Below are positions 1,396 through 14,328 of a stretch of 64,000 nt of DNA, one piece after another. Each line of letters opens with the position of its first letter. Position 1 is the stretch's first letter. The stretch spans positions 539,501-603,500 of the forward strand of contig NZ_CP150096.1 in the NCBI RefSeq assembly GCF_038396765.1, read 5' to 3'. Under the pieces are notes generated by a model. That model was given only the letters and a program-made list of their open reading frames with translations, was not told where the DNA came from and searched no databases. The position numbers and the translations under genes were made by a program. The stretch comes from Chitinophaga caseinilytica (GTDB lineage: Bacteria; Bacteroidota; Bacteroidia; Chitinophagales; Chitinophagaceae).

Positions 1396-1451
1396 TTAAC
1401 AATTACATAATGTTATCTTTTCATGAATCGGGAAAGGGCTGATTAATTTTG
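1396..1451 (+). promoter_or_regulatory. Candidate Pho-box promoter of the PhoB-like regulator
   Basis: Three octamers lie at exact 11-bp spacing: TTAACAAT (1396-1403), ATAATGTT (1407-1414) and TTTTCATG (1418-1425). After an 18-bp gap comes the -7 element TAATTTTG (1444-1451). The third octamer is the weakest. The same arrangement with the same 18-bp gap recurs at 8107-8162, 11016-11071 and 11550-11605. An 11-bp direct-repeat period is characteristic of OmpR/PhoB-family sites, so autoregulation is inferred. Confidence 0.6.
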
Positions 1452-1474
1452 TGCCGTCTTTAAACACCCAAATT

Positions 1475-2164
1475 ATGTTGATGGAACCAGCAGTAGCAGT
1501 AGGAAAAATTCTGGTAGTAGACGATGAGGCGGATATCCTCGAGATCATCAGTTACAACCTGAAAAGCGCGGGTTACGAAACGGTGACGGCGAAAGACGGG
1601 CTCGAAGCCATCCAGAAGGCCAAGATCTTCCGTCCGGACCTGATCATGCTGGACATCATGATGCCCAACAAGAACGGGATCGACACCTGCCGCGAGCTTC
1701 GCCGGCTGCCGGAGTTCAAAGAAACCATGGTACTGTTCCTCACCGCGCTCAACGATGAAAAGAGCGAGATCGAAGGGCTGAACATGGGGGCAGACGATTA
1801 CATCGCCAAGCCCATCAAGCCCAGGCTCCTCGTTTCCCGCATCAACGCCCTCTTCCGCCGGCTCAACAAAACGGAAGAACAGCAAATCCACCTGGGAGAC
1901 CTCATCATCGACCGCGAAAAATTCACCGTCACCTATAAAGGCACCGAGATCATCCTCGCAAAAAAGGAATTCGAGCTCCTTCAACTCCTCGCCTCCAAAC
2001 CCGGCCGCGTGTTCCTCCGCAACGAAATCCTCAACCAGGTCTGGGGTACGGAAGTGATCGTGGGAGACCGCACCATCGACGTGCACATCCGCAAAATCCG
2101 CCAGAAACTGGGCGTAGACCTCATCACCACCGTAAAAGGCGTAGGCTACAAATTCGAACTGTAA
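1475..2164 (+). CDS. Response regulator transcription factor, OmpR/PhoB family
   Basis: This 229-aa protein has an N-terminal receiver domain and a C-terminal winged-helix DNA-binding domain. Receiver features are the acidic pair D16-D17, phospho-acceptor D60 in DLIMLDIMMP, and the conserved lysine in YIAKP. The C-terminal half ends with the typical DVHIRKIRQKLG and TVKGVGYKF segments. I chose ATG 1475 over an upstream GTG at 1451, because 1451 is the last base of the -7 element. The sensor kinase gene follows 64 bp downstream on the same strand. Neighbouring phosphate-transport genes and the 11-bp operator suggest a PhoB role, but receiver sequence alone does not prove the signal. Confidence 0.93.
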   Translation: MLMEPAVAVGKILVVDDEADILEIISYNLKSAGYETVTAKDGLEAIQKAKIFRPDLIMLDIMMPNKNGIDTCRELRRLPEFKETMVLFLTALNDEKSEIEGLNMGADDYIAKPIKPRLLVSRINALFRRLNKTEEQQIHLGDLIIDREKFTVTYKGTEIILAKKEFELLQLLASKPGRVFLRNEILNQVWGTEVIVGDRTIDVHIRKIRQKLGVDLITTVKGVGYKFEL

Positions 2165-2228
2165 TAACATTCCCAACCCACCCGAACTTCCCGTATCCGC
2201 ACCTCTGTGGCCACCGGCACCGTGATTT

Positions 2229-3359
2229 ATGGCATCTACCTCTACAAGTAAAAAATTTAGCTTAATTTCCAGCTATCACAATCTATCCGCTCTCTGGAGT
2301 ATGCTGAAAGCCAAAAACCTGTCGCCACAGAAACTAGCCGCCTTCACTGCTTTCATCCTGTCGGTCGTAATGGCCCTCGGATGCCTGTTCATCGGCGCCA
2401 CCCTCAAACAAACGCTCCTCGCGCTCGGCCTCACCTTTATCGTGGCCTATTTCCTCTATCTCTACACCTTGCAGAACTTCATCTACCGAAAGATCAAGCT
2501 CATCTACAAGTTCATTTACCAGACAAAGGCCTCCAAGCGCGAAGAATTCTTCAATAAAAACATCCTGCCCCTCAAAACCATCGAGGAAGTAAGCGAAGAC
2601 GTGGAAAAATGGGCCTCGCAGAAAAAGGAAGAACTGGAAAACCTCCGCCGCAACGAAGCTTTCCGGAAAGAATTCCTCCTCAACCTGTCCCACGAACTGA
2701 AAACCCCCATCTTCGCCGTGCAGGGATACATCCATACCTTGCTGGACGGCGCCCTGGAAGACCCCAACGTCAATAAGGACTTCCTCAAGAAAGCGACCAA
2801 GAACATCGACCGCCTCTGCCGGCTGATCGACGATCTCGATGAAATCTCCAAGCTCGAAAGCGGGGAAATGACTATCAACAAAGAACAATTCGTTATCCAG
2901 GACCTCATCCGCGATGTGTTCGACACCCTTTCCATCAAAGCCCGGCAGAAAGATATCAAGTTCGGTATCAAGAAAGGCTGCGAAGCGCCCGTGCAGGTTT
3001 ATGCCGACAAGGAAAAGATCCGGCAGGTGCTGATCAACCTCATCGAAAACTCGGTGAAATACGGCAAAACGGAAGGACAAACCATCGCCAGCGTATACAA
3101 TATGGACGGGAATCGCGCGCTCGTGGAGATTTCCGACAACGGGATCGGCATGGCCGAAGAGCACCTCCCCCGCGTGTTCGAACGTTTCTACCGGACAGAC
3201 CGTGCCCGCAGCCGAGACATCGGTGGTACCGGCCTGGGACTCGCCATCGTAAAGCATATCGTGGAAGCGCACGATCAGACGATCAACGTGCGCAGCAAGG
3301 TGGAAGTAGGTTCCACTTTCGGATTTACCCTGGAACTGGGCCGCGAGAACCTGCTGTAA
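2229..3359 (+). CDS. Sensor histidine kinase, PhoR-like
   Basis: This 376-aa membrane kinase presumably phosphorylates the regulator encoded just upstream. Two hydrophobic segments (about residues 38-58 and 62-82) form a hairpin with almost no periplasmic loop, and there is no clear PAS domain before the kinase core. The H-box is LNLSHELKTP with H155. The ATPase domain shows N274 in LIENSVKYG, DNGIG at 303-307, and GGTGLGLAIVKHIVE near the end. Lack of a large extracytoplasmic sensor resembles PhoR, which reads the state of phosphate transport through partners rather than a ligand outside the cell. Specificity for phosphate is inferred from neighbours. Confidence 0.92.
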   Translation: MASTSTSKKFSLISSYHNLSALWSMLKAKNLSPQKLAAFTAFILSVVMALGCLFIGATLKQTLLALGLTFIVAYFLYLYTLQNFIYRKIKLIYKFIYQTKASKREEFFNKNILPLKTIEEVSEDVEKWASQKKEELENLRRNEAFRKEFLLNLSHELKTPIFAVQGYIHTLLDGALEDPNVNKDFLKKATKNIDRLCRLIDDLDEISKLESGEMTINKEQFVIQDLIRDVFDTLSIKARQKDIKFGIKKGCEAPVQVYADKEKIRQVLINLIENSVKYGKTEGQTIASVYNMDGNRALVEISDNGIGMAEEHLPRVFERFYRTDRARSRDIGGTGLGLAIVKHIVEAHDQTINVRSKVEVGSTFGFTLELGRENLL

Positions 3360-3412
3360 CTTTCTTCATTTAATGTCCGTTTCAATGGGGAACAACCAAA
3401 CAATTACCCCTC

Positions 3413-3808
3413 ATGAAACACATGCTTTTGTTGTTGCCGTTGATGGCAACCATTATTTTTTCGGCTTGCAAAAAGGACAAATCCCCCAACTATGAAGGTA
3501 CCCCCAATGCCATCAGCGGAGAATGGAAAATAGACGCGTCCGCCATGCAGTTCACTTCAGATGCCATCCTCCCGGAATGGGGATTCGGTACGGATCACAA
3601 GTATGAAAGGAAAGGCGGTACGAAATCCGCGCCCCTCCACGAAAAGGGAACGTATACTTTCGGCCCCGGCCCTGCCGACGGCCTGATCCTCACGCTGAAA
3701 CCCAACGGTGGCAATAGCTACACCATCAGCGTTTCCGAGCTCACCGCAAAATCGGTCAACTTCAGGGAAACGGCAGACGGGCCTACGAACACCTTCCTCC
3801 GGAAATAG
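3413..3808 (+). CDS. Small lipoprotein, tandem paralog 1 of 4
   Basis: This 131-aa predicted lipoprotein has a signal peptide ending in FSAC (lipid-modified Cys at residue 19), followed by KKDK as in many Chitinophagaceae outer-membrane lipoproteins. The mature domain of about 110 residues is beta-rich. It contains AISGEW, an EWGFGTDHKYE block, a KGTYTF strand and a final TFLRK strand, a layout reminiscent of compact lipocalin-like domains. It starts 54 bp after the kinase gene on the same strand and could be co-transcribed. It is closest to the next gene, with which it shares even the leader sequence around ACCAAACA and CCCCTC. The function is unknown. Confidence 0.88.
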   Translation: MKHMLLLLPLMATIIFSACKKDKSPNYEGTPNAISGEWKIDASAMQFTSDAILPEWGFGTDHKYERKGGTKSAPLHEKGTYTFGPGPADGLILTLKPNGGNSYTISVSELTAKSVNFRETADGPTNTFLRK

Positions 3809-3926
3809 CCGGCCACCGCGCTCATTTCGCAGCAAATACTGCCCAGATACCGGTTTCCGGGGCCCGGATGTAACTTTCCGGCCCCGGAAGCCGTTTCGCA
3901 CATATCAACCAAACAAAACACCCCTC

Positions 3927-4322
3927 ATGAAACACATGATCCTGTTTTTGTCGCTCGCTGCTTCCGTTATTTTCACTTCCTGCAAGAAAGACAAGGCCCC
4001 CAATTACGGAGGAGCGCCAAACGCCATTAGCGGCCATTGGGTTTTAGACGCCGGATACATGCAATACCCGGCCGGCACCATCCTCCCGGAATGGGGATTC
4101 GGCACGGATTACAAATATGAAAAGAAAAGAGGCCTGGCATTTGCGTCGGCAACCGAGCAGGGAACTTATTCATTAGCGCCCGGCCCGGCCAACGGCTACA
4201 CCCTCACCTTAAAGCCCCGAAATGGCAACAGTTACACCGTCACCGTTACCGAGATCTCGGCGAAATCCGCCTACTTCAAGGAATCGGCAGATGACCCTAC
4301 GTTCATTTATCTCCGCAAATAG
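3927..4322 (+). CDS. Small lipoprotein, tandem paralog 2 of 4
   Basis: A 131-aa lipoprotein, the same length as paralog 1, with the lipobox FTSC at residue 19 and the same blocks: KKDKAPNY, AISGHW, LPEWGFGTDYKYE, LTLKP-NGNSYT and a terminal YLRK. An upstream-extended frame beginning at 3708 overlaps paralog 1 and has no signal peptide, so ATG 3927 is preferred. The 15-20 bases before the ATG nearly repeat those before paralog 1, indicating recent tandem duplication. I see no enzyme motif. Binding of a small hydrophobic or anionic ligand is possible but not shown. Confidence 0.88.
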   Translation: MKHMILFLSLAASVIFTSCKKDKAPNYGGAPNAISGHWVLDAGYMQYPAGTILPEWGFGTDYKYEKKRGLAFASATEQGTYSLAPGPANGYTLTLKPRNGNSYTVTVTEISAKSAYFKESADDPTFIYLRK

Positions 4323-4434
4323 ACCGGCGGCGGCAATTTTGCAGCAACGATAGACAGTCAAGCCTTTCCAGGTCCAGGAAGTAAATTCCACCACCGAAAG
4401 CCGTTTATAAAACTATCCACCTAATAATTCCCTT

Positions 4435-4854
4435 ATGAAACAGCTTTTCCTTTTCCTCCTGATGGCTGCCGGCATGGCGGCCGCATCCTGCAAAAAAGAC
4501 AAGAAACCCGCACCGGCACCGGATTATAACGGTACACCCAATGCCGTGAGCGGCGTTTGGTCGATGGATATTTATACCCTTAGCTCCATCGCACCCTTCC
4601 AGTACGACTACGGATTCGGTACCAATAACCTTTACGAAAAGGTGACCGGCTCATCGACCGATAAAAAAACAGAGAAAGGAAGTTACACGCTCACGCCGGT
4701 TACAGGCACACCGGGCGCATATACCATTCATTTACAGCCGGTTACCGGCAGTGCATATACGATCAGCGTAACGGAACTTACCGAGACCTACGCTATTTTT
4801 GAACAATCGCAGCCATACACTAAATTCGGGTTCAGAAAAATCCCCCGTCGATGA
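4435..4854 (+). CDS. Small lipoprotein, tandem paralog 3 of 4
   Basis: A 139-aa lipoprotein with Cys19 in the lipobox AASC, followed by KKDKKPAPAPDYNGTPNAVSG. It keeps the family blocks: VSGVW, YGFGTNNLYEK, KGSYTL, GSAYTISVTEL and a final FRK. It is more divergent from paralogs 1 and 2, with a proline-rich linker after the lipid anchor. Its stop overlaps the start of paralog 4 by four bases (ATGA), so these two are translationally linked. No function is recognisable. Confidence 0.87.
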   Translation: MKQLFLFLLMAAGMAAASCKKDKKPAPAPDYNGTPNAVSGVWSMDIYTLSSIAPFQYDYGFGTNNLYEKVTGSSTDKKTEKGSYTLTPVTGTPGAYTIHLQPVTGSAYTISVTELTETYAIFEQSQPYTKFGFRKIPRR

Positions 4855-5243
4855 AAAAATCCCTGATCGCCTGTGCCCTCCTGGCCACCACGCTCTTTGG
4901 CGCGTGCAAGAAAGACAAATACACCGGCGTCGAATTCGGCGGCACCGCCAACGAAATCTCCGGCGAATGGATGATGAACCCGGTCACCGTTACGGGAGAT
5001 CCCGCGTCTACCGTGGTCCCCAAATACCAGTTCGGCACCAATTCCAGGTACTCTTTCGTACAGGGCCTGCATACTTTGCCCAAGACGGAAACCGGAAAGT
5101 ATATGGTGATACAGCGGCCGCCCATCGGTTTTTACGTGGTGGTCTTCACCCCTGATAACGGGGCGGAATACAATGTGGAGCTACATCTCCAGTCGCCCGA
5201 CGTGGCTATGTTCGGCGCGCGGATGTTCCATCGTTTAAAATGA
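4851..5243 (+). CDS. Small lipoprotein, tandem paralog 4 of 4
   Basis: A 130-aa lipoprotein, again with the anchor at Cys19 (FGAC), followed by KKDKYTGVEFGGTANEISGEWM. It retains the ISGEW block, a YQFGTNSRYSF version of the GFGTD block, and a KTETGKYMV strand. It is the most divergent of the four and ends MFHRLK. Its start overlaps paralog 3 by four bases. Its TGA is immediately followed by the TCA stop of the convergent porin gene, so the two genes abut in a TGATCA palindrome with no terminator between them. Confidence 0.87.
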   Translation: MKKSLIACALLATTLFGACKKDKYTGVEFGGTANEISGEWMMNPVTVTGDPASTVVPKYQFGTNSRYSFVQGLHTLPKTETGKYMVIQRPPIGFYVVVFTPDNGAEYNVELHLQSPDVAMFGARMFHRLK

Positions 5244-6580
5244 TCAGAAGCGGTACTGGATACGGGTGGTAAACACGTTGTCGGGGATATCGCCCTCGAA
5301 CCCGTCGATGGAAGTGCTTTCGTTCCAAACGCGGTCGTACCAGATGGTGGCTTTCATGTTTTCGTTGAAGTACAGCACATACCCGAAGCCGAAGGTATCG
5401 AAACGGATATCTGCGGGCGTGAGGTATTTTGAAGCGGCGTCGCCGATCTGGCGGCCTTTTACGCTGCGGTTGGGGTCGTACCAGTCGTATTTCATCACGA
5501 GTTGGTGTTTGGGGCTGCCGAGGTGCTGGAGGAACGAGAAATAGGCGCCGTCGAACGGCCGGATGTACAGGGGCGCGAAGGCACCGGATTTCTCCATGGG
5601 GATCGTTCCGGGCGTTTCGGTATCCAGCGCTGTGGAGGTTTGGGTGCCGCGGATGTATTCCGCACGGAACTGCGTACTGCCGCGCCCTTTGCCGTTGGGG
5701 ACCACGAATTGCGCATCGCCGCCGAAATATTGCCGGGGGGCGATAACGCCCACATTATGGGCGCTCGAATCCACGGAGAAGTCTTTCTTCCCCCTTCCAT
5801 CGTATAAATTTTGTTGGTAAACTGCTCCATCCCGCCGTACAGGATGCTGCCGCCGAAGGAAAGCAGCCAGCCGGCCGAATTGACGGGCCGCGGCTTCATG
5901 GCCACCCGGGCGATGAGGTCTTTGTGGCTGTCGAAGTCCGACGGGCCGGAGAGGCCCTGTCCGTTAAACAGGCCCACATCTACTTTCAGGAAATGCAAGG
6001 GGTGGGATTTGGCGCGCGGCTCGAAGGTGAGCATGCCGCCCATATCGCGCTCGCTGCGCATCAGGATCTGGCTCATCCGCCCGCGCTCGGGCGCCTCGCG
6101 GTCGCCGGAGGAAAGGTTCACCTCGTACCCGAACGGCCGGGCGAACATACCCATCGTGAGCGCCATCACGTCCCACTGGCCATCAAACAACCGGCCCCAG
6201 AAGTCGCGGATGTTCACGCCGCGCTCGGTGCCGTCGAACTGGAACACGAACTGTACCGTGGGCAGGTCCCGCTTGTTGAAGTGGGCGTAATCGAACCGCA
6301 CACGGCCGCGGCGGAGCATGAACCTGTTGTCTGACTGTTTATTGAAATCCCCGCCGGAATAGCTTTCTATGCCTTTATGCGATGCGTACTGGAACTGGGG
6401 CTGCATGTACCCGCTGATCCGCAGGTGATCGTACCGTTTATAAATGGAAATCATCCCCTTCCCCAGTTCGGTCGTGGTGTCGATCATATCCATCAGGAAC
6501 TGGGCTTTCGCTGAAAACGCAGCCGTGCTGAGAAATAATGCCAGGAAACCTGTCCGAACGATTGTGCGCATTGCCTTCAT
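5244..6580 (-). pseudogene. Phosphate-selective porin O/P-like protein, frameshifted
   Basis: Two frames join into one OprO/OprP-type outer-membrane barrel of about 445 residues. The N-terminal part (signal peptide ending SAKAQ, then RISGYMQPQFQYA, RRGRVRFDYAHFN and VFQFDGTERG) runs in one frame. The C-terminal part (FGGDAQFVV through FTTRIQYRF, a normal barrel end) runs in another. The break lies in a C5 run at 5790-5794, where one missing base (or two extra) separates the frames. The total span of 1337 nt is one short of a multiple of three. The start at 6580 is used because the -7 element lies just upstream. OprO/P porins favour phosphate or polyphosphate, which fits the neighbourhood. Sequencing error is as likely as inactivation. 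Confidence 0.85.
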
Positions 6581-6584
6581 CGCG

Positions 6585-6615
6585 CAAAAATACGGAACCG
6601 GATACAGCAAACAAA
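6585..6615 (-). promoter_or_regulatory. Full -33/-7 promoter of the porin
   Basis: On the minus strand, TTTG (6612-6615) and TATTTTTG (6585-6592) are separated by 19 bp, a full match to the Bacteroidota TTTG/TAnnTTTG promoter. Only four bases separate the -7 element from the ATG at 6580, so the transcript is probably leaderless or nearly so. The operator octamers of the neighbouring Pho-type promoters are absent. Confidence 0.65.
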
Positions 6616-6638
6616 ACGCCCGGGCGGCTGCCCGGGCG
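6608..6638 (-). terminator. Rho-independent terminator of the beta-helix lipoprotein gene
   Basis: A 9-bp perfect stem (CGCCCGGGC with GCCCGGGCG) around a 4-nt loop is followed on the minus strand by TTTTGTTT. The T-tract overlaps the -33 element of the porin promoter. Confidence 0.8.
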
Positions 6639-6670
6639 CTGTAGATTATAACGATTCGACAGATGCGTGA

Positions 6671-8074
6671 TTAGTACGCCTGCTGACCAGGGTTGAAGTT
6701 GGTCCAACCTGCGATCCAGTTGTCGGTACCGAAAGCACCGCGGAAAGTCTCGGTTTTGATACCGGTTGCAGCCTGGAAGGTGCCTTTCAGGGGCTCGGAA
6801 CCGGTTTTGGGCAGGAAGTTGGGGTTAGCCAGGTTGAACGGATCGGTGAGGCCAACTGCGTCTGCGGAAGCCGCTACGAAGTTATATTGGTTGGCAGCGG
6901 TAGCCAGGTCGCGCAGCATGCCGATACCTTCGTTGATCATGGCAGTGCGGTCTGCGCTGGGCATGGGATCAGCAGGGTATTTGTTCCCGGTCAGGAAACG
7001 CGCGGTAGCTGAGTCGGTGCTGAAGGGTTTGGCTACAGCGTAAACGATGTTGTTCTGCCATTTGCTCACACCATTCTTGTAATCGTTCCAGCTGGCGGAA
7101 GATTCGATAGAGAAACCGCCTTTCTGGTTGCCGAGGAGGATGGAGTTCACGAAAGTGAAATTGGTCGCTCTTCTCCAACGGTTGCCCAGGTTGTGGTTAG
7201 AGAGGGTGCCGGTGGCGCCGTTGGGGCCAATGATGGTCATATTGGAAATTACCGGGTGTGTACGGGGAGTTGCGGTGGTACCGGAACCGTCGTTGTCGCA
7301 CTCGATACCGTTACCAGCATCTCCGGGGTCAACGAAATCGGGTTTGCGGAGCGCAACAGCGTACTGAACGGTGCCGCGGTAACCGAAGTCGAAATCGAAA
7401 TCATCGTCTGCAGTGGCGAAAGCAACCAGGTGAGTGGGGCTAACGGTACCGCCGAAGAATTCGAAGGCATCGTCGTTAGCGAAAGCAGTCATTACGTGAT
7501 CGATTTTGGTGCCGCTACCTACAGCGCCCAGGGTGAGGGCGTTGATCTCGGAGTTAGGCTGTGCTGCGATACCAGCGTATTCGATACGAACGTATTGGAG
7601 GATACCGGAGTTATCGTTATCATCGTTGCCACCGTAGTAGCGGCCAACACCGCCTTCGATCTGGGGATCGGTGCTGCGGTTGGTCTTGGCTTTACCGAGG
7701 ATGATGATGCCACCCCAATCGCCGGGGTTACGCTGGCCGGGGGCTTTACCGGAAGTAAACACGATAGGTTTCTGGGCGGTACCGGTCGCGAAGATTTTCG
7801 CGCCGCGCTCGATGATCAGCGCGCCTTTTTCAGTAATATCGCTTTTGATCACGGTGCCTTCCTGGATGGTCAGCGTTTTTCCTTCAGGAAAATAAACGTA
7901 ACCTTTCAGCGTCCATACTTTATCATTGGTGAGGGTCTTGCTCTCGGTTTGAACACCGCTCAGAACGGTTTCTACAACGGGCGTCAGATCATCATCATCG
8001 CCATCATTATTACGGCAGGAAGAGAGCGCTATCGCTGTACCTAAAGTAAAAGCAAGGAATTTTACAAGTTTCAT
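6671..8074 (-). CDS. Beta-helix-type lipoprotein paired with the TonB receptor
   Basis: A 467-aa surface or periplasmic lipoprotein, with signal peptide and lipobox ALSSC then RNNDGDDDD. The body has right-handed beta-helix-like repeats: KTLTIQEGTVIKSD, GALIIERGAKIFATG, PIVFTSG, then GDWGGIIILGKA and GILQYVRIEYAG. It carries many Asp-rich turns such as TADDDFDFDFGY. Proteins of this kind are often encoded next to a TonB receptor in Bacteroidota and are thought to act with it at the outer membrane. Here it lies directly downstream of such a receptor but has its own 11-bp-spaced operator (8133-8162) and its own terminator. Induction by phosphate shortage is inferred. The substrate is unknown. 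Confidence 0.88.
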   Translation of the reverse strand: MKLVKFLAFTLGTAIALSSCRNNDGDDDDLTPVVETVLSGVQTESKTLTNDKVWTLKGYVYFPEGKTLTIQEGTVIKSDITEKGALIIERGAKIFATGTAQKPIVFTSGKAPGQRNPGDWGGIIILGKAKTNRSTDPQIEGGVGRYYGGNDDNDNSGILQYVRIEYAGIAAQPNSEINALTLGAVGSGTKIDHVMTAFANDDAFEFFGGTVSPTHLVAFATADDDFDFDFGYRGTVQYAVALRKPDFVDPGDAGNGIECDNDGSGTTATPRTHPVISNMTIIGPNGATGTLSNHNLGNRWRRATNFTFVNSILLGNQKGGFSIESSASWNDYKNGVSKWQNNIVYAVAKPFSTDSATARFLTGNKYPADPMPSADRTAMINEGIGMLRDLATAANQYNFVAASADAVGLTDPFNLANPNFLPKTGSEPLKGTFQAATGIKTETFRGAFGTDNWIAGWTNFNPGQQAY

Positions 8075-8106
8075 TCGAACAGATTTTCAGTGATTGAATT
8101 GCAGTG

Positions 8107-8162
8107 CAAAAGTGCCTTCGTTATGTTATGCGTACTTTAACACGGCGTTATGAAATTGTTAC
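8107..8162 (-). promoter_or_regulatory. Candidate Pho-box promoter of the beta-helix lipoprotein
   Basis: Read on the minus strand, the octamers GTAACAAT (8155-8162), ATAACGCC (8144-8151) and TTAAAGTA (8133-8140) lie at 11-bp spacing. They are followed after exactly 18 bp by a weak -7 element CACTTTTG (8107-8114). A fourth in-phase octamer, ATAACATA, lies inside the 18-bp gap. The weak -7 element and missing -33 element suggest activator dependence. Confidence 0.55.
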
Positions 8163-8174
8163 TGTATCGTCGTA

Positions 8175-10991
8175 TTATTTATTCTTTCCCAAACCGAACT
8201 GGTAAGTGAAATTCAGCGAAATGTTCGTACCAGGGCGGAGCGTGTTGATAATCTGGTCTACGTTCTTGCTGTACGCCTTCTTGTTGTCGTTGTTCTGATA
8301 GAAGATCAGCTTCTGGTTCAGCAGGTCGCTCACGTTCAGGCGCAGTTCACCTTTCTTGTTCATGATCTTTTTACCGATCTGAAGGTCGATCAGATCGCGG
8401 CCTTTTTCGTAAATGTGCTCATACCCATCGAAGCCTACGAGGTAAACGCGCTGCCCCATTTTGTTGTACAGCAGTCCGAAAGCGAGGTCGGTTTCAGGAT
8501 TCACGTACTGGAGGCCGGCGTTGACCAGATAAGGGCTCTGGCCCTGCAGGCCGCGCTGCGACAGCGTTTCAGATGCAATACCCTGAAGGTCTACTGAAGA
8601 GTGAATGTAGGAGAAGTTTGCAAATGCGGTGGTATTGGCGAAGAAAGGCTCGCTGGACATGAAATCCAGCTTCTTGCGGAACTCCAGCTCAAATCCGTAC
8701 GACTGTGCGCTGGGCACGTTCTGGAACAGGATCTGGCGGCGGTTGGGCGTAGAACCCGGGTCAACGATCTGCTCGATCGCGTCTTTGAAGTGCTTGAAGA
8801 ACACGGAAGCCGTGATAGCCTCTCCTGCACCGGGGTACAGCTCGTAACGGAGGTCAGCGTTGGTGATGAGGCCGCGCTTCAGGTCGGGGTTACCGATCAT
8901 GGAGCTGAAGGTCACGAAATCGTAGAAGGAAAAGTAGCTCAGCTCGCGAAGCTCAGGACGGGATACCGTTCTGCTGCCGCTCAGGCGGATATTGGACTTC
9001 TCGTTCACCGCATAAGAAATGTTGGCGCTGGGCAACACGTCAAAGAAGGTAACATCCTGTTTTACGCGCTTGCCGGAGAAATCGGCGGTGCGAATGAACT
9101 GGTAGTACGATTCGCCACGGGCGCCCCATACCACACGTACCTTATCACCGATCTTGTTGTCGAACTGCACATAACCAGCCACGAGGTCGGAAGTAGCTTT
9201 GTATTTGTCTGAGTTGTTCGTGATCTCTTCGATACGGAGGCCATTCTCGCGAATGTTGGCGGGAGCGAAAATCTGCCCCGGCTCCATCGACAGGATCGAC
9301 TGGTCGTAACCGGTCTGGTTGGCGGCATATCCGAGAACGCGTGCGCTGAAGTCGCGCTCGCGGTACAGTTTCTGGCCACCGAGCTTCACGCTTTGTTTAA
9401 CACCGGCGATGTTAAAAGGAGCGGTCAGCGATCCCATCGCGCCTACGCCATATTCTTCCAGGTTCGACCAGAAGCGGGATACGTTACGGGCCACGGAGTT
9501 CACGGGGATCATGGCTTCGTAGATATTCTTGCTTTCGTTCAGCTTATAGGTCAGCACCTTCATGTCGGGCTGGTCGCGGTTGGTCAGCGAGTAGTTTACG
9601 TTCCAGTCCAGTCTCCAGTCGCGTGCGTTCAGCTTGTGGTTGCCTTCGAGCTGGGAGTTCAGCATCGTTTTGATCGTCAGGTCCTGGCCGTAAGCTTTCA
9701 GGTCGCCGATGTCGGTGCTGTTACCGGAGCGGTAGATATAGTTGTTGTCGAGGATGCGGTTGAAGATATTCTTGAAGGAAATCTTGTTGTTGCGTTTCAC
9801 GTAAGTGAAGTTGGCGATGGCGCCGAGGCTGGTGTTGTATTTGTACAGATCTTCCGCGAAATTGATGCTGCGCACTTTCCCGTCCTCATAATCCGCTCGC
9901 TCACCTTTCTGGATGTTTTCGGAATTCCGGTAGGTAACGGAAATGATGCTGCCGAAAGAACCATCTTTTTTCAGGCGGATGCGATTCCCCCAGGTAACCT
10001 GGTAGTTCTGCGCAGGCAATGCTTTCCCCTGGTCGGAAACCGCCCAGTTGTTCTTGAATTCGCGGCTCAGCGACAGTTTCTGATCGAGGTTGAGCGCGCT
10101 GTATTTTTGTCTGGATGAAGGGAAGGAATTCGGCAGTTCGCGCAGGCCGTCGTCGAACGTCAGCCAGTCGGTTTTACCACGCTCCATGCCCTGGGTTTCC
10201 TTGAAAGTGGTCTGGCTGTTGTAGCCGAGGCCGATATTGAAGGAGATGAAATTTTCGGTAGGGATATCCTTTGTATATACCTGGACCAGGCCACCGGCGA
10301 AGTCGGCGGGCATCTCGGGAGATGCGGTCTTGTTGATAATGATGTTATCGATCAGGTTGGAAGGAATGAGGTCGAAGGAGAAGGCCTTACGGTCCGGCTC
10401 GGTGCTGGGCAGCATGGCGTTGTTGATGGTGGCGGTATTGTAACGGTCGTTGAGGCCGCGTACGATAATATATTTGTTATCCTGGATGGATGCGCCGCTC
10501 ACGCGTTTGAGCACTTCTGAAGTATTGCGGTCCGGGCTGCGGCGGATGCTTTCGCCGGAGATGCCGCTGGAAATGCTGGGGTTGTTTTTCTGGGCAACGA
10601 AGAGGGCGTTGATGGTTTCCTGTTTGTAGGAACCGCGGATCACCACTTCCTGCAGGTCTTTGGATTTGGGCTCGTCCAGCGCGATGTCGAGGTTGGCGGT
10701 TTGCCCGGCCTTTACCACCACGTCTGCGATAGATTTGGTTTGGTAGCCCATGTATTTGAAGTCGAGCGTATAAGTGCCGGGAGCCACCTGGATGAGGTAG
10801 CGGCCTTCTACGTCGGTCACGGCGCCTTTTGAGGTATTCTGTACCATCACTGTCACACCGATCAGCAGTTCGCCCGTTTTCTTGTCAGTCAGTTTCCCGG
10901 TAATTTTCCCGGACCCGTCCTGCGCGAAAGAAGGAAGGCAGGCGATGCATAAAATCCCGATAATTTGTACAGCAGTAATAATGCGTTTCAC
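8175..10991 (-). CDS. TonB-dependent receptor with carboxypeptidase-like N-domain
   Basis: A 938-aa outer-membrane transporter starting at GTG 10991. Domain order: signal peptide (about 1-23); a carboxypeptidase-regulatory-like beta-sandwich (about 25-115, GKITGKLTDKKTGELL to YMGYQTKS); a plug (about 130-240, including NTSEVLKRVSGASIQ, IIVRGLNDRYN and FAGGLVQVYT); then a large barrel ending NFTYQFGLGKNK. It is not a classic SusC, because no SusD is adjacent. Its likely partner is the beta-helix lipoprotein immediately downstream. The promoter carries the clearest 11-bp-spaced octamers in the window, so it is the strongest candidate for phosphate-starvation control. The transported substrate (phosphate or an organophosphate) is inference only. 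Confidence 0.92.
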   Translation of the reverse strand: MKRIITAVQIIGILCIACLPSFAQDGSGKITGKLTDKKTGELLIGVTVMVQNTSKGAVTDVEGRYLIQVAPGTYTLDFKYMGYQTKSIADVVVKAGQTANLDIALDEPKSKDLQEVVIRGSYKQETINALFVAQKNNPSISSGISGESIRRSPDRNTSEVLKRVSGASIQDNKYIIVRGLNDRYNTATINNAMLPSTEPDRKAFSFDLIPSNLIDNIIINKTASPEMPADFAGGLVQVYTKDIPTENFISFNIGLGYNSQTTFKETQGMERGKTDWLTFDDGLRELPNSFPSSRQKYSALNLDQKLSLSREFKNNWAVSDQGKALPAQNYQVTWGNRIRLKKDGSFGSIISVTYRNSENIQKGERADYEDGKVRSINFAEDLYKYNTSLGAIANFTYVKRNNKISFKNIFNRILDNNYIYRSGNSTDIGDLKAYGQDLTIKTMLNSQLEGNHKLNARDWRLDWNVNYSLTNRDQPDMKVLTYKLNESKNIYEAMIPVNSVARNVSRFWSNLEEYGVGAMGSLTAPFNIAGVKQSVKLGGQKLYRERDFSARVLGYAANQTGYDQSILSMEPGQIFAPANIRENGLRIEEITNNSDKYKATSDLVAGYVQFDNKIGDKVRVVWGARGESYYQFIRTADFSGKRVKQDVTFFDVLPSANISYAVNEKSNIRLSGSRTVSRPELRELSYFSFYDFVTFSSMIGNPDLKRGLITNADLRYELYPGAGEAITASVFFKHFKDAIEQIVDPGSTPNRRQILFQNVPSAQSYGFELEFRKKLDFMSSEPFFANTTAFANFSYIHSSVDLQGIASETLSQRGLQGQSPYLVNAGLQYVNPETDLAFGLLYNKMGQRVYLVGFDGYEHIYEKGRDLIDLQIGKKIMNKKGELRLNVSDLLNQKLIFYQNNDNKKAYSKNVDQIINTLRPGTNISLNFTYQFGLGKNK

Positions 10992-11015
10992 GTATTTGTG
11001 TGTTGATTACGGCCG

Positions 11016-11071
11016 CAAAACTACCATGGTCGAATTATGCCAATGTTAAGCCAATATTACCAGAATGTTAA
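11016..11071 (-). promoter_or_regulatory. Candidate Pho-box promoter of the TonB receptor (clearest case)
   Basis: On the minus strand, the octamers TTAACATT (11064-11071), GTAATATT (11053-11060) and TTAACATT (11042-11049) repeat every 11 bp. They are followed after 18 bp by the -7 element TAGTTTTG (11016-11023). The first and third octamers are identical. No TTTG is present at -33, because the promoter-proximal octamer occupies that position. Confidence 0.65.
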
Positions 11072-11147
11072 TTGTTAAGGAATCATTAAAAAATCATTAA
11101 CGATGCCCCCGAAGCGCGGTGGATAAGGTTTTCAGCCGCAAAACCGT

Positions 11148-11528
11148 TTATATGGCGGGGTTTCCGCCCTGGCGCAGGAGCCATTCGATGGAGAGGTCGA
11201 CGCCGCGGGCGGGCGGTTTTTCGGAACAGGGCGGCAGTTGGAACAGCCGGAGGCTTTTATTCATGAAGGGTTTGGAATCCTGGTTGCACAGTTCGATGGA
11301 AAAATGGAATTTTTCTTCGACTTCTTCTTCGAACTCGCGGAGGCTGAGGGTTTCGTCTATAGGGAATTCGATCATGTCCTCTTCTTCGAGGCCGGCTTCA
11401 CGAAGGGTATTAAAACCGTTTGCCAGGGTATGACGGATATACACCGCGGCGTTGCAGTGGAGGAGCCGCTGTATCTGCATCTGTAACAGGGATATCGTCA
11501 TGAGTGGGTGTAGCTTGAGCGTCTTCAT
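11148..11528 (-). CDS. Hypothetical 126-aa protein with Pho-box-type promoter
   Basis: A small soluble protein without signal peptide or membrane segment. Its N-terminal part is helical. A glutamate-rich stretch, LREFEEEVEEKFHF, lies near the middle, and it ends GVDLSIEWLLRQGGNPAI. I recognise no family. It sits between the TonB receptor and the PlcP/LpxH-like phosphoesterase, all on the minus strand. A TAAGTTTG -7 element lies 21 bp before the ATG at 11528, with three operator octamers upstream. That makes it a predicted member of the local Pho regulon. Alternative internal starts exist (second Met at residue 10). Confidence 0.75.
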   Translation of the reverse strand: MKTLKLHPLMTISLLQMQIQRLLHCNAAVYIRHTLANGFNTLREAGLEEEDMIEFPIDETLSLREFEEEVEEKFHFSIELCNQDSKPFMNKSLRLFQLPPCSEKPPARGVDLSIEWLLRQGGNPAI

Positions 11529-11549
11529 CTAGTATTCGGATCGGTTACG

Positions 11550-11605
11550 CAAACTTATCCGTTCAGGGTTACCTGAATATTAAGCAAACGTTATAAATGT
11601 GTGAA
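11550..11605 (-). promoter_or_regulatory. Candidate Pho-box promoter of the 126-aa protein
   Basis: On the minus strand, the octamers TTCACACA (11598-11605, weak), ATAACGTT (11587-11594) and TTAATATT (11576-11583) are spaced by 11 bp. They are followed after 18 bp by TAAGTTTG (11550-11557). The geometry is identical to the three other candidate Pho boxes. Confidence 0.58.
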
Positions 11606-11607
11606 AA

Positions 11608-12435
11608 TTAACGTGTGAAGGAAATCGAGCGGGCCACGGCGCTCCATTCGAGCTGGAGGGTTTCATCCTCTTCCTCCACCACCGGCGCTTTCTTTTCGGC
11701 GTGGCGGTACAGGTCCCACCGCCCTTCCGTGTACTCCAGGGCGGTGAGGCTCTCTACCCAGTCGCCCGAGTTGAGGTACGTCACCGTCCGCCCGTTCACC
11801 TGTTCTTCGCGGATCACGGGTTGGTGGATATGGCCGCAGCAGACTACGTCTATTTCCTTGTCTGCCGCGATTTCCACCACCGTCTGCTCGAAATCGGAGA
11901 TGAATTTGACGGCCTGTTTCACGCCGGCTTTCACTTTCTGGGAGAACGACATTTTTTCGCGGCCCATTTTCTCCAGCATGTGGTTTACGAGGCGATTGAG
12001 GATGATGAGGAGGTCGTACCCTTTTCCACCGAGCTTGGCGAGCCATTTGGAGTTTTTCATGGTAACGTCGTACACGTCGCCATGGAAGAACCAGTGCTTC
12101 TTTCCGTCTACATCCAGGATTAATTTATTGTCTATCAGGAAGTTACCTAATCCGAACCCGGCATATTTGCGGAGGGCTTCGTCGTGGTTGCCGGTGAGGT
12201 AATAGACATCGGTGCCTTTGCCCATCATTTTGAGGATGCGGCGGATGACTTTGGTGTGGGATTTCGGGAAGTAGCGTTTGCTGAACTGCCAGATGTCGAT
12301 GATATCGCCGTTGAGGATGAGGATCCTGGGCTGGATGGAGTCCAGGTATTGGGCGAGCTCTTTTGCGTGACAGCCGTAGATTCCGAGGTGGACGTCGGAA
12401 ATGACTACAATATCCAGTGGTCGTTTGTCTGACAT
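11608..12435 (-). CDS. Calcineurin-like phosphoesterase, PlcP/LpxH-type (COG2908-like)
   Basis: A 275-aa cytoplasmic metallophosphoesterase with the full metal-ligand series: SDVHLG, NGDIID, TGNHDEAL, FHGDVYD and CGHIHQPV. The C-terminal YLNSGDWVESLTALEY segment is typical of proteins annotated as UDP-2,3-diacylglucosamine diphosphatase and of the phospholipase-C-like PlcP group. PlcP enzymes remove phosphate-containing head groups from membrane lipids during phosphate starvation in other bacteria. The phosphate-gene neighbourhood favours that role here, but LpxH activity in lipid A synthesis cannot be excluded. The gene is divergent from the DUF47-PiT operon. No glycolipid synthase is adjacent. 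One octamer (TTAACATT, minus strand, 12477-12484) lies upstream without the complete operator geometry. Confidence 0.88.
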   Translation of the reverse strand: MSDKRPLDIVVISDVHLGIYGCHAKELAQYLDSIQPRILILNGDIIDIWQFSKRYFPKSHTKVIRRILKMMGKGTDVYYLTGNHDEALRKYAGFGLGNFLIDNKLILDVDGKKHWFFHGDVYDVTMKNSKWLAKLGGKGYDLLIILNRLVNHMLEKMGREKMSFSQKVKAGVKQAVKFISDFEQTVVEIAADKEIDVVCCGHIHQPVIREEQVNGRTVTYLNSGDWVESLTALEYTEGRWDLYRHAEKKAPVVEEEDETLQLEWSAVARSISFTR

Positions 12436-12613
12436 TTGTTGGTTTATGGGCGCTTTTTCAACTTTTTTACATAAAAAATGTTAATTATATGATTGAGCTG
12501 AAAGGCGCCAGGATTCTATCACAAAGGAAAAAATGCTATATTACTTTCATATTAATTCAATGTTACCAAAACATTAATTCTCTTTTTTTCTGGCGCCATT
12601 TCTTTTAGAAAAC

Positions 12614-12621
12614 TAATTTTG
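12614..12621 (+). promoter_or_regulatory. -7 element TAATTTTG of the DUF47-PiT operon
   Basis: It lies 29 bp before the ATG at 12651. The octamer arrangement does not fit at the 18-bp position. Three TTA-starting blocks at 11-bp phase (12552, 12563 and 12574) lie about 14 bp further upstream and are a weaker candidate operator. Confidence 0.5.
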
Positions 12622-12650: not shown

Positions 12651-13301
12651 ATGGGAGGCTTTAATTCTATTGTGAAACTGTTCATGCCGAAAGACAGGGT
12701 GTTCTATTCACTTTTCGAAGATGTGGCGGCGAACCTGGTGGAAATGGGTAAAGTGCTGGTGGAGCTGGTGGAAACCAAGGACCCGGTGATCCGGAAAGAT
12801 AAAGTAGTCCTGATCGAGCGGCTGGAGCACAAGAACGATGACCTGACGCATCGCATATTTGTAGAATTGGGGCAGAACTTCATTACGCCTTTCGACCGGG
12901 AAGACATTCACTATCTCGCCTCTACGCTGGACGATGTGGCGGATTACATCCATGGTTCGGCCAAGCGTATCGACATGTACAAAGTGGTGGAAATCAATGA
13001 CAGTGTTCGCAAACTGGCTGATCTGATCAACCAGGGCGTGGCGGAGCTGGCCAAAGCGATCCCCGAGCTGCGCAACATGAACAATATGCGGGCCATCACG
13101 GATGCGTGTGTGAAGATCAACAGCCTGGAGAACCATGCCGACGATATTTACGACCGTGCGATCGCGGATTTGTTTGAGCAGGAAAGCAATGCGGTGGAGC
13201 TGATCAAGATGCGCGAGATCTATCAGGCGCTGGAAATCGCTACCGACAAGTGCGAAGATTCCGCCAACGTGATAGAAACCATCATCATTAAATATGCTTA
13301 G
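12651..13301 (+). CDS. DUF47 family PhoU-like protein, PiT accessory
   Basis: A 216-aa, all-helical cytoplasmic protein of the DUF47/PhoU-like family. Characteristic segments are EDVAANLVEMGKVL near residue 25, HKNDDLTHRIFVELGQNFITPFDREDI around 62-90 and EIYQALEIATDKCEDSANVIE at the end. DUF47 proteins are usually encoded with PiT permeases and are thought to control or couple their activity, binding metals through E/D-rich motifs. The permease gene starts 19 bp downstream, so this is a two-gene operon. Length is normal for the family. Confidence 0.93.
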   Translation: MGGFNSIVKLFMPKDRVFYSLFEDVAANLVEMGKVLVELVETKDPVIRKDKVVLIERLEHKNDDLTHRIFVELGQNFITPFDREDIHYLASTLDDVADYIHGSAKRIDMYKVVEINDSVRKLADLINQGVAELAKAIPELRNMNNMRAITDACVKINSLENHADDIYDRAIADLFEQESNAVELIKMREIYQALEIATDKCEDSANVIETIIIKYA

Positions 13302-13320
13302 CCGCTAATCCCGACAGCTC

Positions 13321-14328
13321 ATGACATTTCTGGTAGTCATCATTATACTGGCATTTATATTCGATTACATAAACGGGTTCCACGATGCGGCCAATTCCAT
13401 TGCCACGATCGTGTCCACCAAAGTACTGACGCCGTTCCAGGCGGTGCTGTGGGCCGCGCTCTTCAACTTTGCGGCGTTCTTCGTTTCCAAATACATTTAC
13501 GGTGAGTTCAAGGTGGGCAATACCATCGCCAAATCCGTGTTCGAGGAGTTCATTACCCTGAAGGTGATCTTTTCCGGACTGGTGGCGGCCATTACCTGGA
13601 ACCTGCTGACCTGGTGGTACGGCATCCCGTCCAGCTCCTCCCACACGCTGATCGGCGGGTTTATCGGGGCGGCGGTAGCTAACGCCCATGGGTCCTTTGC
13701 CGTGATCAACTTTTCCAAAGTATTGCCTACGGTGTATTTCATCGTGCTGGCTCCTTTCATCGGCATGGTGGTGGCATTCATCATTACCGTGTTCATCGTC
13801 AACGTCTCCAAACGGGCCAATCCGTACCGTGCGGAAAACTGGTTCAAGCGCCTGCAGCTGGTATCTTCCGCCGCATTCAGCCTTGGCCACGGCGGTAACG
13901 ATGCGCAGAAGGTAATGGGTATTATCGCCGCGGCGATGGTGGCCCATGGCAGTATCGGTCATTTGAAAGACGTGCCCGACTGGGTGCCGTTCGCCTGCTT
14001 TACGGCCATTGGCCTGGGTACGCTGAGCGGTGGCTGGAAGATTGTGAAAACGATGGGTACCCGCATCACCAAGGTGACGCCGCTGGAAGGGGTGAGCGCC
14101 GAAACGGCGGGTGCGATCACGCTGTACATGACCGAAAGCCTCGGTATCCCGGTGAGCACCACGCATACCATTACCGGTTCCATCATCGGGGTGGGCGCCA
14201 CCAAACGTCTTTCGGCCGTGCGCTGGGGGGTGACGGTGAACCTCCTCTGGGCCTGGATCCTCACGATCCCCATCAGTGCAGCCCTGGCCGCGGTGGTGTT
14301 CTTCATCGTGAACTTCTTCGTGAAATAA
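13321..14328 (+). CDS. Inorganic phosphate permease, PiT family
   Basis: A 335-aa inner-membrane phosphate transporter driven by a cation gradient. It shows both halves of the PiT inverted repeat: GFHDAANSIATIVSTKVL at the N-terminus and SLGHGGNDAQKVMGII in the second half. SSSSHTLIGG and STTHTITGSIIG are the paired serine/histidine-rich re-entrant motifs. About ten membrane segments are visible. It is the second gene of the operon with DUF47, and a strong terminator follows. It gives the cell phosphate uptake across the inner membrane, after the porin and TonB receptor at the outer membrane. Confidence 0.95.
   Translation: MTFLVVIIILAFIFDYINGFHDAANSIATIVSTKVLTPFQAVLWAALFNFAAFFVSKYIYGEFKVGNTIAKSVFEEFITLKVIFSGLVAAITWNLLTWWYGIPSSSSHTLIGGFIGAAVANAHGSFAVINFSKVLPTVYFIVLAPFIGMVVAFIITVFIVNVSKRANPYRAENWFKRLQLVSSAAFSLGHGGNDAQKVMGIIAAAMVAHGSIGHLKDVPDWVPFACFTAIGLGTLSGGWKIVKTMGTRITKVTPLEGVSAETAGAITLYMTESLGIPVSTTHTITGSIIGVGATKRLSAVRWGVTVNLLWAWILTIPISAALAAVVFFIVNFFVK

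Follow-up and report, generated by a model that had tools for sequence, protein, structure and literature searches.

A -7-locked array of four tandem repeats as a candidate Pho box of the Bacteroidota

We analysed a window of 64,000 nucleotides (positions 539501-603500 of the complete 6.52-Mb genome of Chitinophaga caseinilytica, phylum Bacteroidota), which encodes a PhoB-type response regulator and a PhoR-type histidine kinase. Arrays of short direct repeats stand there before the genes for a TonB-dependent receptor, a beta-helix-like lipoprotein, a 126-amino-acid (aa) protein and a PlcP-like phosphoesterase. These repeats are very probably a Bacteroidota Pho box, i.e., the operator of a phosphate-starvation regulon that would be read by the PhoB orthologue; binding and the response to phosphate are predicted from the sequence.

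The full site consisted of four units, each made of the octamer [GT]TAA[CT]A[AT]T and three free bases, all in one orientation. The fourth unit, which occupied the place of a -33 element, was separated from the -7 element TANNTTTG by 7 bp. A logo drawn from 53 sites of other genera displayed the same four units, the fourth lying 7 bp ahead of TANNTTTG, which was usually followed by C. The G or T before TAA, the A after TAAY and the C after TTTG were left free in the search pattern and were conserved nevertheless. Both the anatomy and the register of the array were read directly from the DNA, and they include two hallmarks of a Pho box: tandem direct repeats with an 11-bp period and a fixed distance to the core promoter, whose upstream element is replaced. 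The core in the 53-site logo was TAAC/TAAT; the CTGTCAT core of the Escherichia coli type was absent from it.

An earlier sequence-only reading of this DNA had described four such sites, before the genes of the regulator, the beta-helix-like lipoprotein, the TonB receptor and the 126-aa protein, each with three octamers (offsets 0, 11 and 22), the last of which is exactly 18 bp away from the -7 element (TAATTTTG, CACTTTTG, TAGTTTTG and TAAGTTTG, respectively). All four are present letter by letter (Table 1), with these offsets and this spacing. The full form, however, has four octamers: the fourth ones, ATAATTCG (TonB receptor), GTAACCCT (126-aa gene) and ATAACATA (beta-helix gene), are hidden within the supposed gap of 18 bp, at 7 bp from the -7 element. 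The family-wide four-unit logo ruled out three units as the complete site. The list of four was also incomplete, as it had overlooked a strong fifth array on the minus strand, which points towards the 275-aa PlcP-like gene, with the DUF47-PiT genes running divergently from it. Because of this divergent array, the claim that the -7 element of DUF47 lacks the arrangement is true for the DUF47 strand only; the opposite strand bears the array.

Table 1. Repeat arrays and genes of the window (positions count from its first letter; array units are given in reading order)
Feature	Position	Strand	Details
TonB-receptor array	11016..11071	-	TTAACATT 11071-11064, GTAATATT 11060-11053, TTAACATT 11049-11042, ATAATTCG 11038-11031, -7 TAGTTTTG 11023-11016
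PlcP-like gene array	12522..12577	-	TTAATGTT, GTAACATT, TTAATATG, GTAATATA, then -7-like TTCCTTTG 12529-12522
126-aa gene array	11550..11605	-	TTCACACA, ATAACGTT, TTAATATT, unit 4 GTAACCCT 11572-11565, -7 TAAGTTTG 11557-11550
Beta-helix gene array	8107..8162	-	GTAACAAT, ATAACGCC, TTAAAGTA, unit 4 ATAACATA 8129-8122, -7 CACTTTTG 8114-8107
Two-unit site of regulator gene	1396..1451	+	TTAACAAT 1396-1403, ATAATGTT 1407-1414, 29 bp, -7 TAATTTTG 1444-1451
Extra three-unit stretch adjoining TonB-receptor array upstream	11070..11101	-	out of 11-bp register with that array
PhoB-type response regulator gene	1451..2164	+	receiver and Trans_reg_C (Pfam)
PhoR-type histidine kinase gene	2229..3359	+	HisKA and HATPase; top models PnpS, WalK and PhoR, all under cut-off
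Beta-helix-like lipoprotein gene	6671..8074	-	467 aa; candidate fold name, from the sequence-only reading and homologues
TonB-dependent receptor gene	8175..10991	-	CarbopepD_reg_2, Plug, OMP_b-brl_3
126-aa gene	11148..11528	-	no domain found (Pfam, NCBIfam)
PlcP-like calcineurin-type phosphoesterase gene	11608..12435	-	275 aa; PF00149/PF12850
DUF47 (PhoU-like) and PiT transporter genes	12651..14328	+	PF01865, PF01384; divergent from the 12522-12577 array

The register of the arrays stood well above the background of the window and of the genome. When the 31 TANNTTTG elements of the window were scored at the exact register against three copies of TTAACATT, the three site-linked ones reached 22, 18 and 17 of 24, and the next best reached 10. 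The beta-helix site, which has CACTTTTG as its -7 element and hence lies outside the 31, scored 15 of 24. If the register was not fixed, the element preceding DUF47 (12614) likewise scored 17, at another distance that corresponds to the reverse-strand array. Allowing up to three mismatches, the spaced pattern matched six times in the 6.5-Mb genome and never in the reversed control. Four of these matches lie in this cluster; they include the overlooked 12522-12577 array, and the beta-helix site is not one of them. A matrix and a profile were built from the 53 sites, with the window's own genus left out and without an overlapping match, L100, which was shifted by one unit against the register and lacked the TTTG end. 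No position among 3.5 million reversed ones reached 20 bits with the four-unit matrix (maximum 19.9), and the window arrays scored 52.6 bits (TonB receptor, with 0 mismatches to the pattern), 45.7 bits (PlcP-like gene), 31.1 bits (126-aa gene) and 30.4 bits (beta-helix gene). In the whole-genome profile search, three window sites ranked first among the candidates scored (150 of 744 first-look candidates). The best match was the TonB-receptor array (expectation value E 1.4e-8) and the second-best the array of the PlcP-like gene (E 2.2e-7); the 126-aa gene array had E 2.7e-5, and the beta-helix array was seventh among the 20 listed (E 0.033).

The pattern was widespread in the family Chitinophagaceae, with at least one four-unit match in 109 of 147 genomes and a total of 188 matches against 11 in the reversed control. 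At the level of the phylum, 45 of 198 genomes had a match, alongside five control matches (hand count). In 11 named Chitinophaga loci, sites of at least 8 bits preceded the PlcP-like gene (11/11), the 126-aa gene (11/11), the TonB receptor gene (11/11) and the beta-helix gene (8/11). Across 8-11 of these loci, identity to the window was 0.99 in the TAA cores, 0.98 in TTTG, 0.69 in the spacers and 0.67 in the flank. The window TonB receptor is 95% identical to its Chitinophaga rhizosphaerae counterpart, and its homologue group (A1), found in 35 of 40 chosen genomes, bears arrays in other families too. Inspection by eye of 30 loci of this group revealed arrays at an unchanged register upstream of the gene in several further families of the class and phylum; within one large family, some of these arrays had five to six units. 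No array was seen at a few of the 30 loci, and for some the stretch inspected lay inside the gene.

To describe the genes behind the arrays, we examined 60 sites, comprising all matches with 0-1 mismatches listed outside the own genome and some with two. They were drawn from 62 rows, from which two duplicates, the second-register row of L100 and the row of L104 (a repeat of L075), were removed; L098/L100, L051, L097 and L099 were assigned from the frames right after the site, and L054 was at a contig edge. The arrays preceded genes for 32 TonB receptors of one homology group, ten porins, four PlcP-like phosphoesterases, two PstS proteins, two relatives of the 126-aa protein and one beta-helix protein, as well as one PhoX, one choice-of-anchor I protein and one GH1-like enzyme (the last by eye). 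The remainder were two RNA-like units, three other genes and the contig edge. The array-bearing PhoX matched PF05787, the array-bearing PstS proteins were over the TIGR00975 cut-off, and three of the ten porins matched Phosphate-selective porin O/P (best E 1.3e-7). One of the four PlcP-like genes was followed by a glycosyltransferase gene, the same order as in the known plcP-agt gene pairs (PMC4796936).

Enrichment near phosphate genes of related genomes, which the sequence-only reading had put forward as a check, was found for pstS. PstS proteins over the TIGR00975 cut-off were encoded at 29 loci in 26 of the 147 genomes. Among the matches listed, at least 16 of these 29 true pstS loci had an array 195-1677 bp upstream on the same strand, compared to 0 of 33 sub-cut-off look-alikes. 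The gene between the array and pstS, examined in nine of the at least 16, encoded an OprP-like porin each time. The comparison used 150 listed of the 188 array matches and one more from G014 (phylum listing), and covered all 33 sub-cut-off loci; because 150 of 188 matches were used, 16 is a lower bound. Arrays upstream of pst, phosphatase and phosphate-porin genes are a further property expected of a Pho box. The phosphate regulon that had been proposed for the window is thus supported by the pstS, OprP-like porin, PhoX, PstS and PlcP-like targets, together with induced homologues in Flavobacterium johnsoniae.

The genome G471, which we take to be the F. johnsoniae UW101 chromosome, encodes, beside a TonB receptor, a protein with 38% identity over 350 aa to the beta-helix protein. 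It also encodes a 58% match to a PlcP-like protein of the group (L064) and a 32% match to a longer TonB receptor of the group; this TonB group was present in 375 of 398 Flavobacterium genomes. Phosphate depletion in F. johnsoniae strongly induces the TonB receptor of the PhoBR operon and the adjoining lipoprotein (PMC8115612), as well as further TonB receptors, lipoproteins, PlcP and a PhoX-like enzyme (PMC8115612, Table 1). The induced lipoproteins are described there as resembling pectate lyases (PMC8115612). With locus tags assigned from position and gene order, the TonB, beta-helix and phosphoesterase families of the window appear to have phosphate-induced homologues in F. johnsoniae. In 400 kb of G471, picked as stretches around expected phosphate genes, the best matrix site reached 22.4 bits against a control maximum of 7.1. 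It is a partial site upstream of two consecutive genes, for a 493-aa lipoprotein and for MauG, which we read as a PhoX-MauG operon; the order fits Fjoh_2478/2477, two strongly induced genes.

The window regulator belongs to the OmpR/PhoB family by its receiver and Trans_reg_C winged helix (Pfam), and its top NCBIfam model is TIGR02154 PhoB (222.5 bits). A single PhoB orthologue per genome (E of 1e-70 or lower) was present in all 60 family genomes compared. As to the start codon, ATG 1475 is likelier than GTG 1451; position 1451 is the last base of the -7 element.

Autoregulated response regulators often carry their own units. The regulator site scored -4.2 bits with the four-unit matrix versus 30 to 53 bits for the other four sites, and its units 1 and 2 had E 0.048 within the window. 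Of the three octamers read here previously, units 1 and 2 are borne out by orthologous promoters, but the third, TTTTCATG at 1418-1425, is not supported and was not seen by eye in those promoters. Thirty loci out of 60 regulator matches were compared: the two-unit site [GTA]TAACAAT-N3-NTAA[TC] occurred in 19 of the 30 promoters, own included, against 1 in the reversed control, 0 on the other strand and a shuffle mean of 0.03. The four-unit matrix reached 12 bits or more in one of the 30. In 14 of the 19, a -7-like element followed the two-unit site at 29 to 32 bp, and in the window at 29 bp; among the other two-unit promoters, two had such an element at 20 and 40 bp and two had none listed. 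The distance of 29 bp is the register of units 1 and 2 within the full array. The presence of only these two upstream units at the regulator promoter suggests a weaker or different form of feedback. In promoters of PhoB orthologues that lack the two-unit site (L265, L270-L273), we observed by eye a shared CATTAA(G/C)TCT or similar sequence before TAGGTTTG.

The array resembles several known phosphate operators and differs from each. The Bacillus subtilis PhoP box has a TTAACA-like core, 11-bp spacing and several repeats; it differs in phylum, targets and promoter class. The cyanobacterial SphR Pho box is built of 8-bp direct repeats with a 3-bp linker and the consensus CTTAACCT (PMC1906773). 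It shares with our array the 8+3 geometry, a TTAAC core, three to four tandem units and association with pst/phoA genes (PMC1906773), whereas the window array has A and then A/T, not C, after the core, holds four units in one rigid register to TANNTTTG, and belongs to another phylum with other targets. The E. coli PhoB box consists of two 11-nt units with CTGTCAT (PMC4415409, PMC1906773). The likeness lies in the 11-bp direct repeats, the fixed distance upstream of the core promoter (10 bp from the -10 element in E. coli) and the PhoB-type reader; the window array differs in its TAAC rather than TGTCA core, its basic form of four rather than two units and its Bacteroidota -7 element. Within the phylum, the PhoP of Riemerella anatipestifer gave a DNA affinity purification sequencing (DAP-seq) motif with TTTAACA as its most conserved part, from 583 peaks (PMC9603813). 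It is likewise a Bacteroidota regulator binding TTTAACA in vitro, but it is described as ArcA-like and linked to virulence, and the available passages of that report define neither a spacing to the -7 element nor a phosphate regulon. The PhoB of Bacteroides fragilis binds the pstC promoter in gel shifts and controls the pst genes (PMC3547664), a PhoB-pst link like the one proposed here; its binding sequence is absent from the passages available. Our searches of an open-licence library, in which most subscription journals are missing, brought up no defined Pho box for the Bacteroidota.

We propose that, when phosphate is exhausted, PhoR would phosphorylate the PhoB-type regulator, two dimers of which would bind the four half-sites head to tail, all on one face of the DNA. 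The promoter-nearest protomer would then recruit the housekeeping sigma factor, substituting for the -33 contact. The array would thereby switch on an outer-membrane uptake set, comprising the TonB receptor and the beta-helix lipoprotein and, in relatives, PstS and an OprP-like porin. It would do the same for phosphatases, among them the PhoX of one relative, and for the PlcP-like enzyme of phospholipid recycling. PhoB binding, activation and the phosphate signal are what we infer from the promoter architecture and the targets. In the own genome, no match was found for PhoU (PF01895), PstS (TIGR00975) or the NptA-type Na/Pi cotransporter (PF02690), so that sensing probably differs from the E. 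coli scheme; two same-genus genomes likewise lacked PstS in the TIGR00975 search. DUF47, whose Pfam name is PhoU_div, is a candidate partner in phosphate sensing.

Several observations weigh against a PhoB-read Pho box. The regulator is under the cut-off of the PhoB equivalog TIGR02154 (222.5 vs 296.2 bits), 11 of the 30 regulator promoters are without the two-unit site, and five of the 11 named Chitinophaga loci (L285-L289) showed no phoBR in the 10 kb beside the TonB gene. Even the looser three-unit pattern was absent from 21 of the 147 family genomes, and 153 of the 198 phylum-level genomes had no match. Among the matches listed (150 of 188), 13 of the 29 pstS loci had no array, and for at least three of the 60 array-bearing genes (L060, L061, L096) a role in phosphate use is not evident. 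In F. johnsoniae, the PhoBR-operon porin OprP, PhoR and PafA were not induced (PMC8115612, Table 1). The strict four-unit array had one match in G471, equal to the one of the reversed control, which indicates that the Flavobacterium box has diverged, been shortened or is missing at most targets; the 493-aa G471 protein had no Pfam domain, and so its reading as PhoX is not supported by Pfam.

Some of these points would also fit another reader. The array may be a genuine activator site of phosphate genes that is read by a different OmpR-family regulator, as the own genome has 101 first-look candidate OmpR-family/receiver proteins, the window regulator falls under the PhoB cut-off, and that regulator was not found near the arrays in L285-L289. 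We consider this unlikely, since PhoB is the best NCBIfam model of the regulator, its orthologue is a single match in every one of the 60 family genomes, and 19 of 30 regulator promoters carry a two-unit version of the array itself. Adjacency to phoBR as the cause of the link was rejected, given that the arrays persist in the five named Chitinophaga loci where a 10-kb stretch beside the TonB gene showed no phoBR. Class II activators replace the upstream promoter element at rigid spacing. The overlap of unit 4 with the promoter core could also mean that a regulator bound there occludes the -33 region and keeps polymerase out, but the rigid replacement of the -33 element is in the style of a class II activator, and the F. 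johnsoniae homologues rise, not fall, on starvation (PMC8115612); repression therefore appears very improbable.

Chance was also weighed, as single octamers are degenerate and had been picked by reading, so that the pattern might be an accident of AT-rich promoters chosen by eye. We regard this as practically negligible. The register scores, the counts in the own genome (6 vs 0) and in the family (188 vs 11) and the other-genus matrix ruled out a chance origin; the profile from other genera recovered the same window sites, and the cores are 99% conserved. Local promoter duplication was ruled out as well, because the arrays of relatives stand on many contigs before different genes and the invariance within Chitinophaga is mostly confined to the cores.

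A Pho box read by PhoB may also be extended to a broader, tentative picture, to which we give somewhat less than an even chance. The -7-locked four-unit box would be the ancestral phosphate switch of the Bacteroidota, retained before one group of TonB receptors both in Chitinophagaceae and in other classes of the phylum. In the present genome PhoR would sense phosphate without PstS or PhoU, with the DUF47-PiT pair next to one of the arrays as a candidate, and in some relatives the box would also drive a small RNA adjoining the kinase gene.

A definition of the Pho box at the level of sequence would make the phosphate regulon predictable in many Bacteroidota of soils, roots, oceans and guts. 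It would also tie to a definite switch the orphan TonB receptors and beta-helix lipoproteins, whose homologues in Flavobacterium show some of the strongest induction by phosphate depletion reported (PMC8115612). Moreover, the array offers a tightly spaced candidate phosphate-responsive promoter, and it raises the question of how phosphate is sensed in a genome where no PstS and no PhoU were found.

As for the remaining window genes, Pfam and NCBIfam searches at 0.001 gave no match for the beta-helix-like lipoprotein, and all species-named homologues among those listed for the 126-aa protein are from Chitinophaga. The 275-aa phosphoesterase belongs to the calcineurin-like family (PF00149, PF12850) and scored far under the LpxH cut-off (TIGR01854, 47.9 against 190.35 bits). 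We refer to it as PlcP-like, as it clusters with L064, a protein 58% identical to the G471 locus read as PlcP. The end of its array lies directly upstream of the DUF47-PiT promoter (-7 element TAATTTTG at 12614; stretch 12522-12621), and owing to this closeness the array might also influence expression of the phosphate transporter. The extra three-unit stretch next to the TonB-receptor array had E 0.0011 and 15.3 bits in the window, and E 0.11 genome-wide.

Two genomes that belong to a single genus share a full array with TACTTTTG (L097 4001-4160, plus strand; L099, minus strand) upstream of a unit of ~100 nt that is near-identical in both and ends in a strong hairpin and a T-run (fold z about -2.3). 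Beyond this unit, a histidine kinase gene ends on the opposite strand, its 3' end nearest (by eye), and the G009 phoB orthologue is 1.4 kb off. This unit is a candidate for a phosphate-controlled small RNA or a tiny open reading frame. The only strict G471 match (L198) stands before a GH1-like enzyme gene (by eye), and an array before such a gene was also seen in the family member L056. Elsewhere in the own genome, with genes named by eye, sites were observed before a PAP2-type phosphatase gene (4784470, L293; E 1.8e-4), a TPR-protein gene (4041339, L294; E 2.9e-4), a TonB receptor gene (4039731, L295; E 0.02) and a gene for a small secreted protein (958046, L101; E 0.04).

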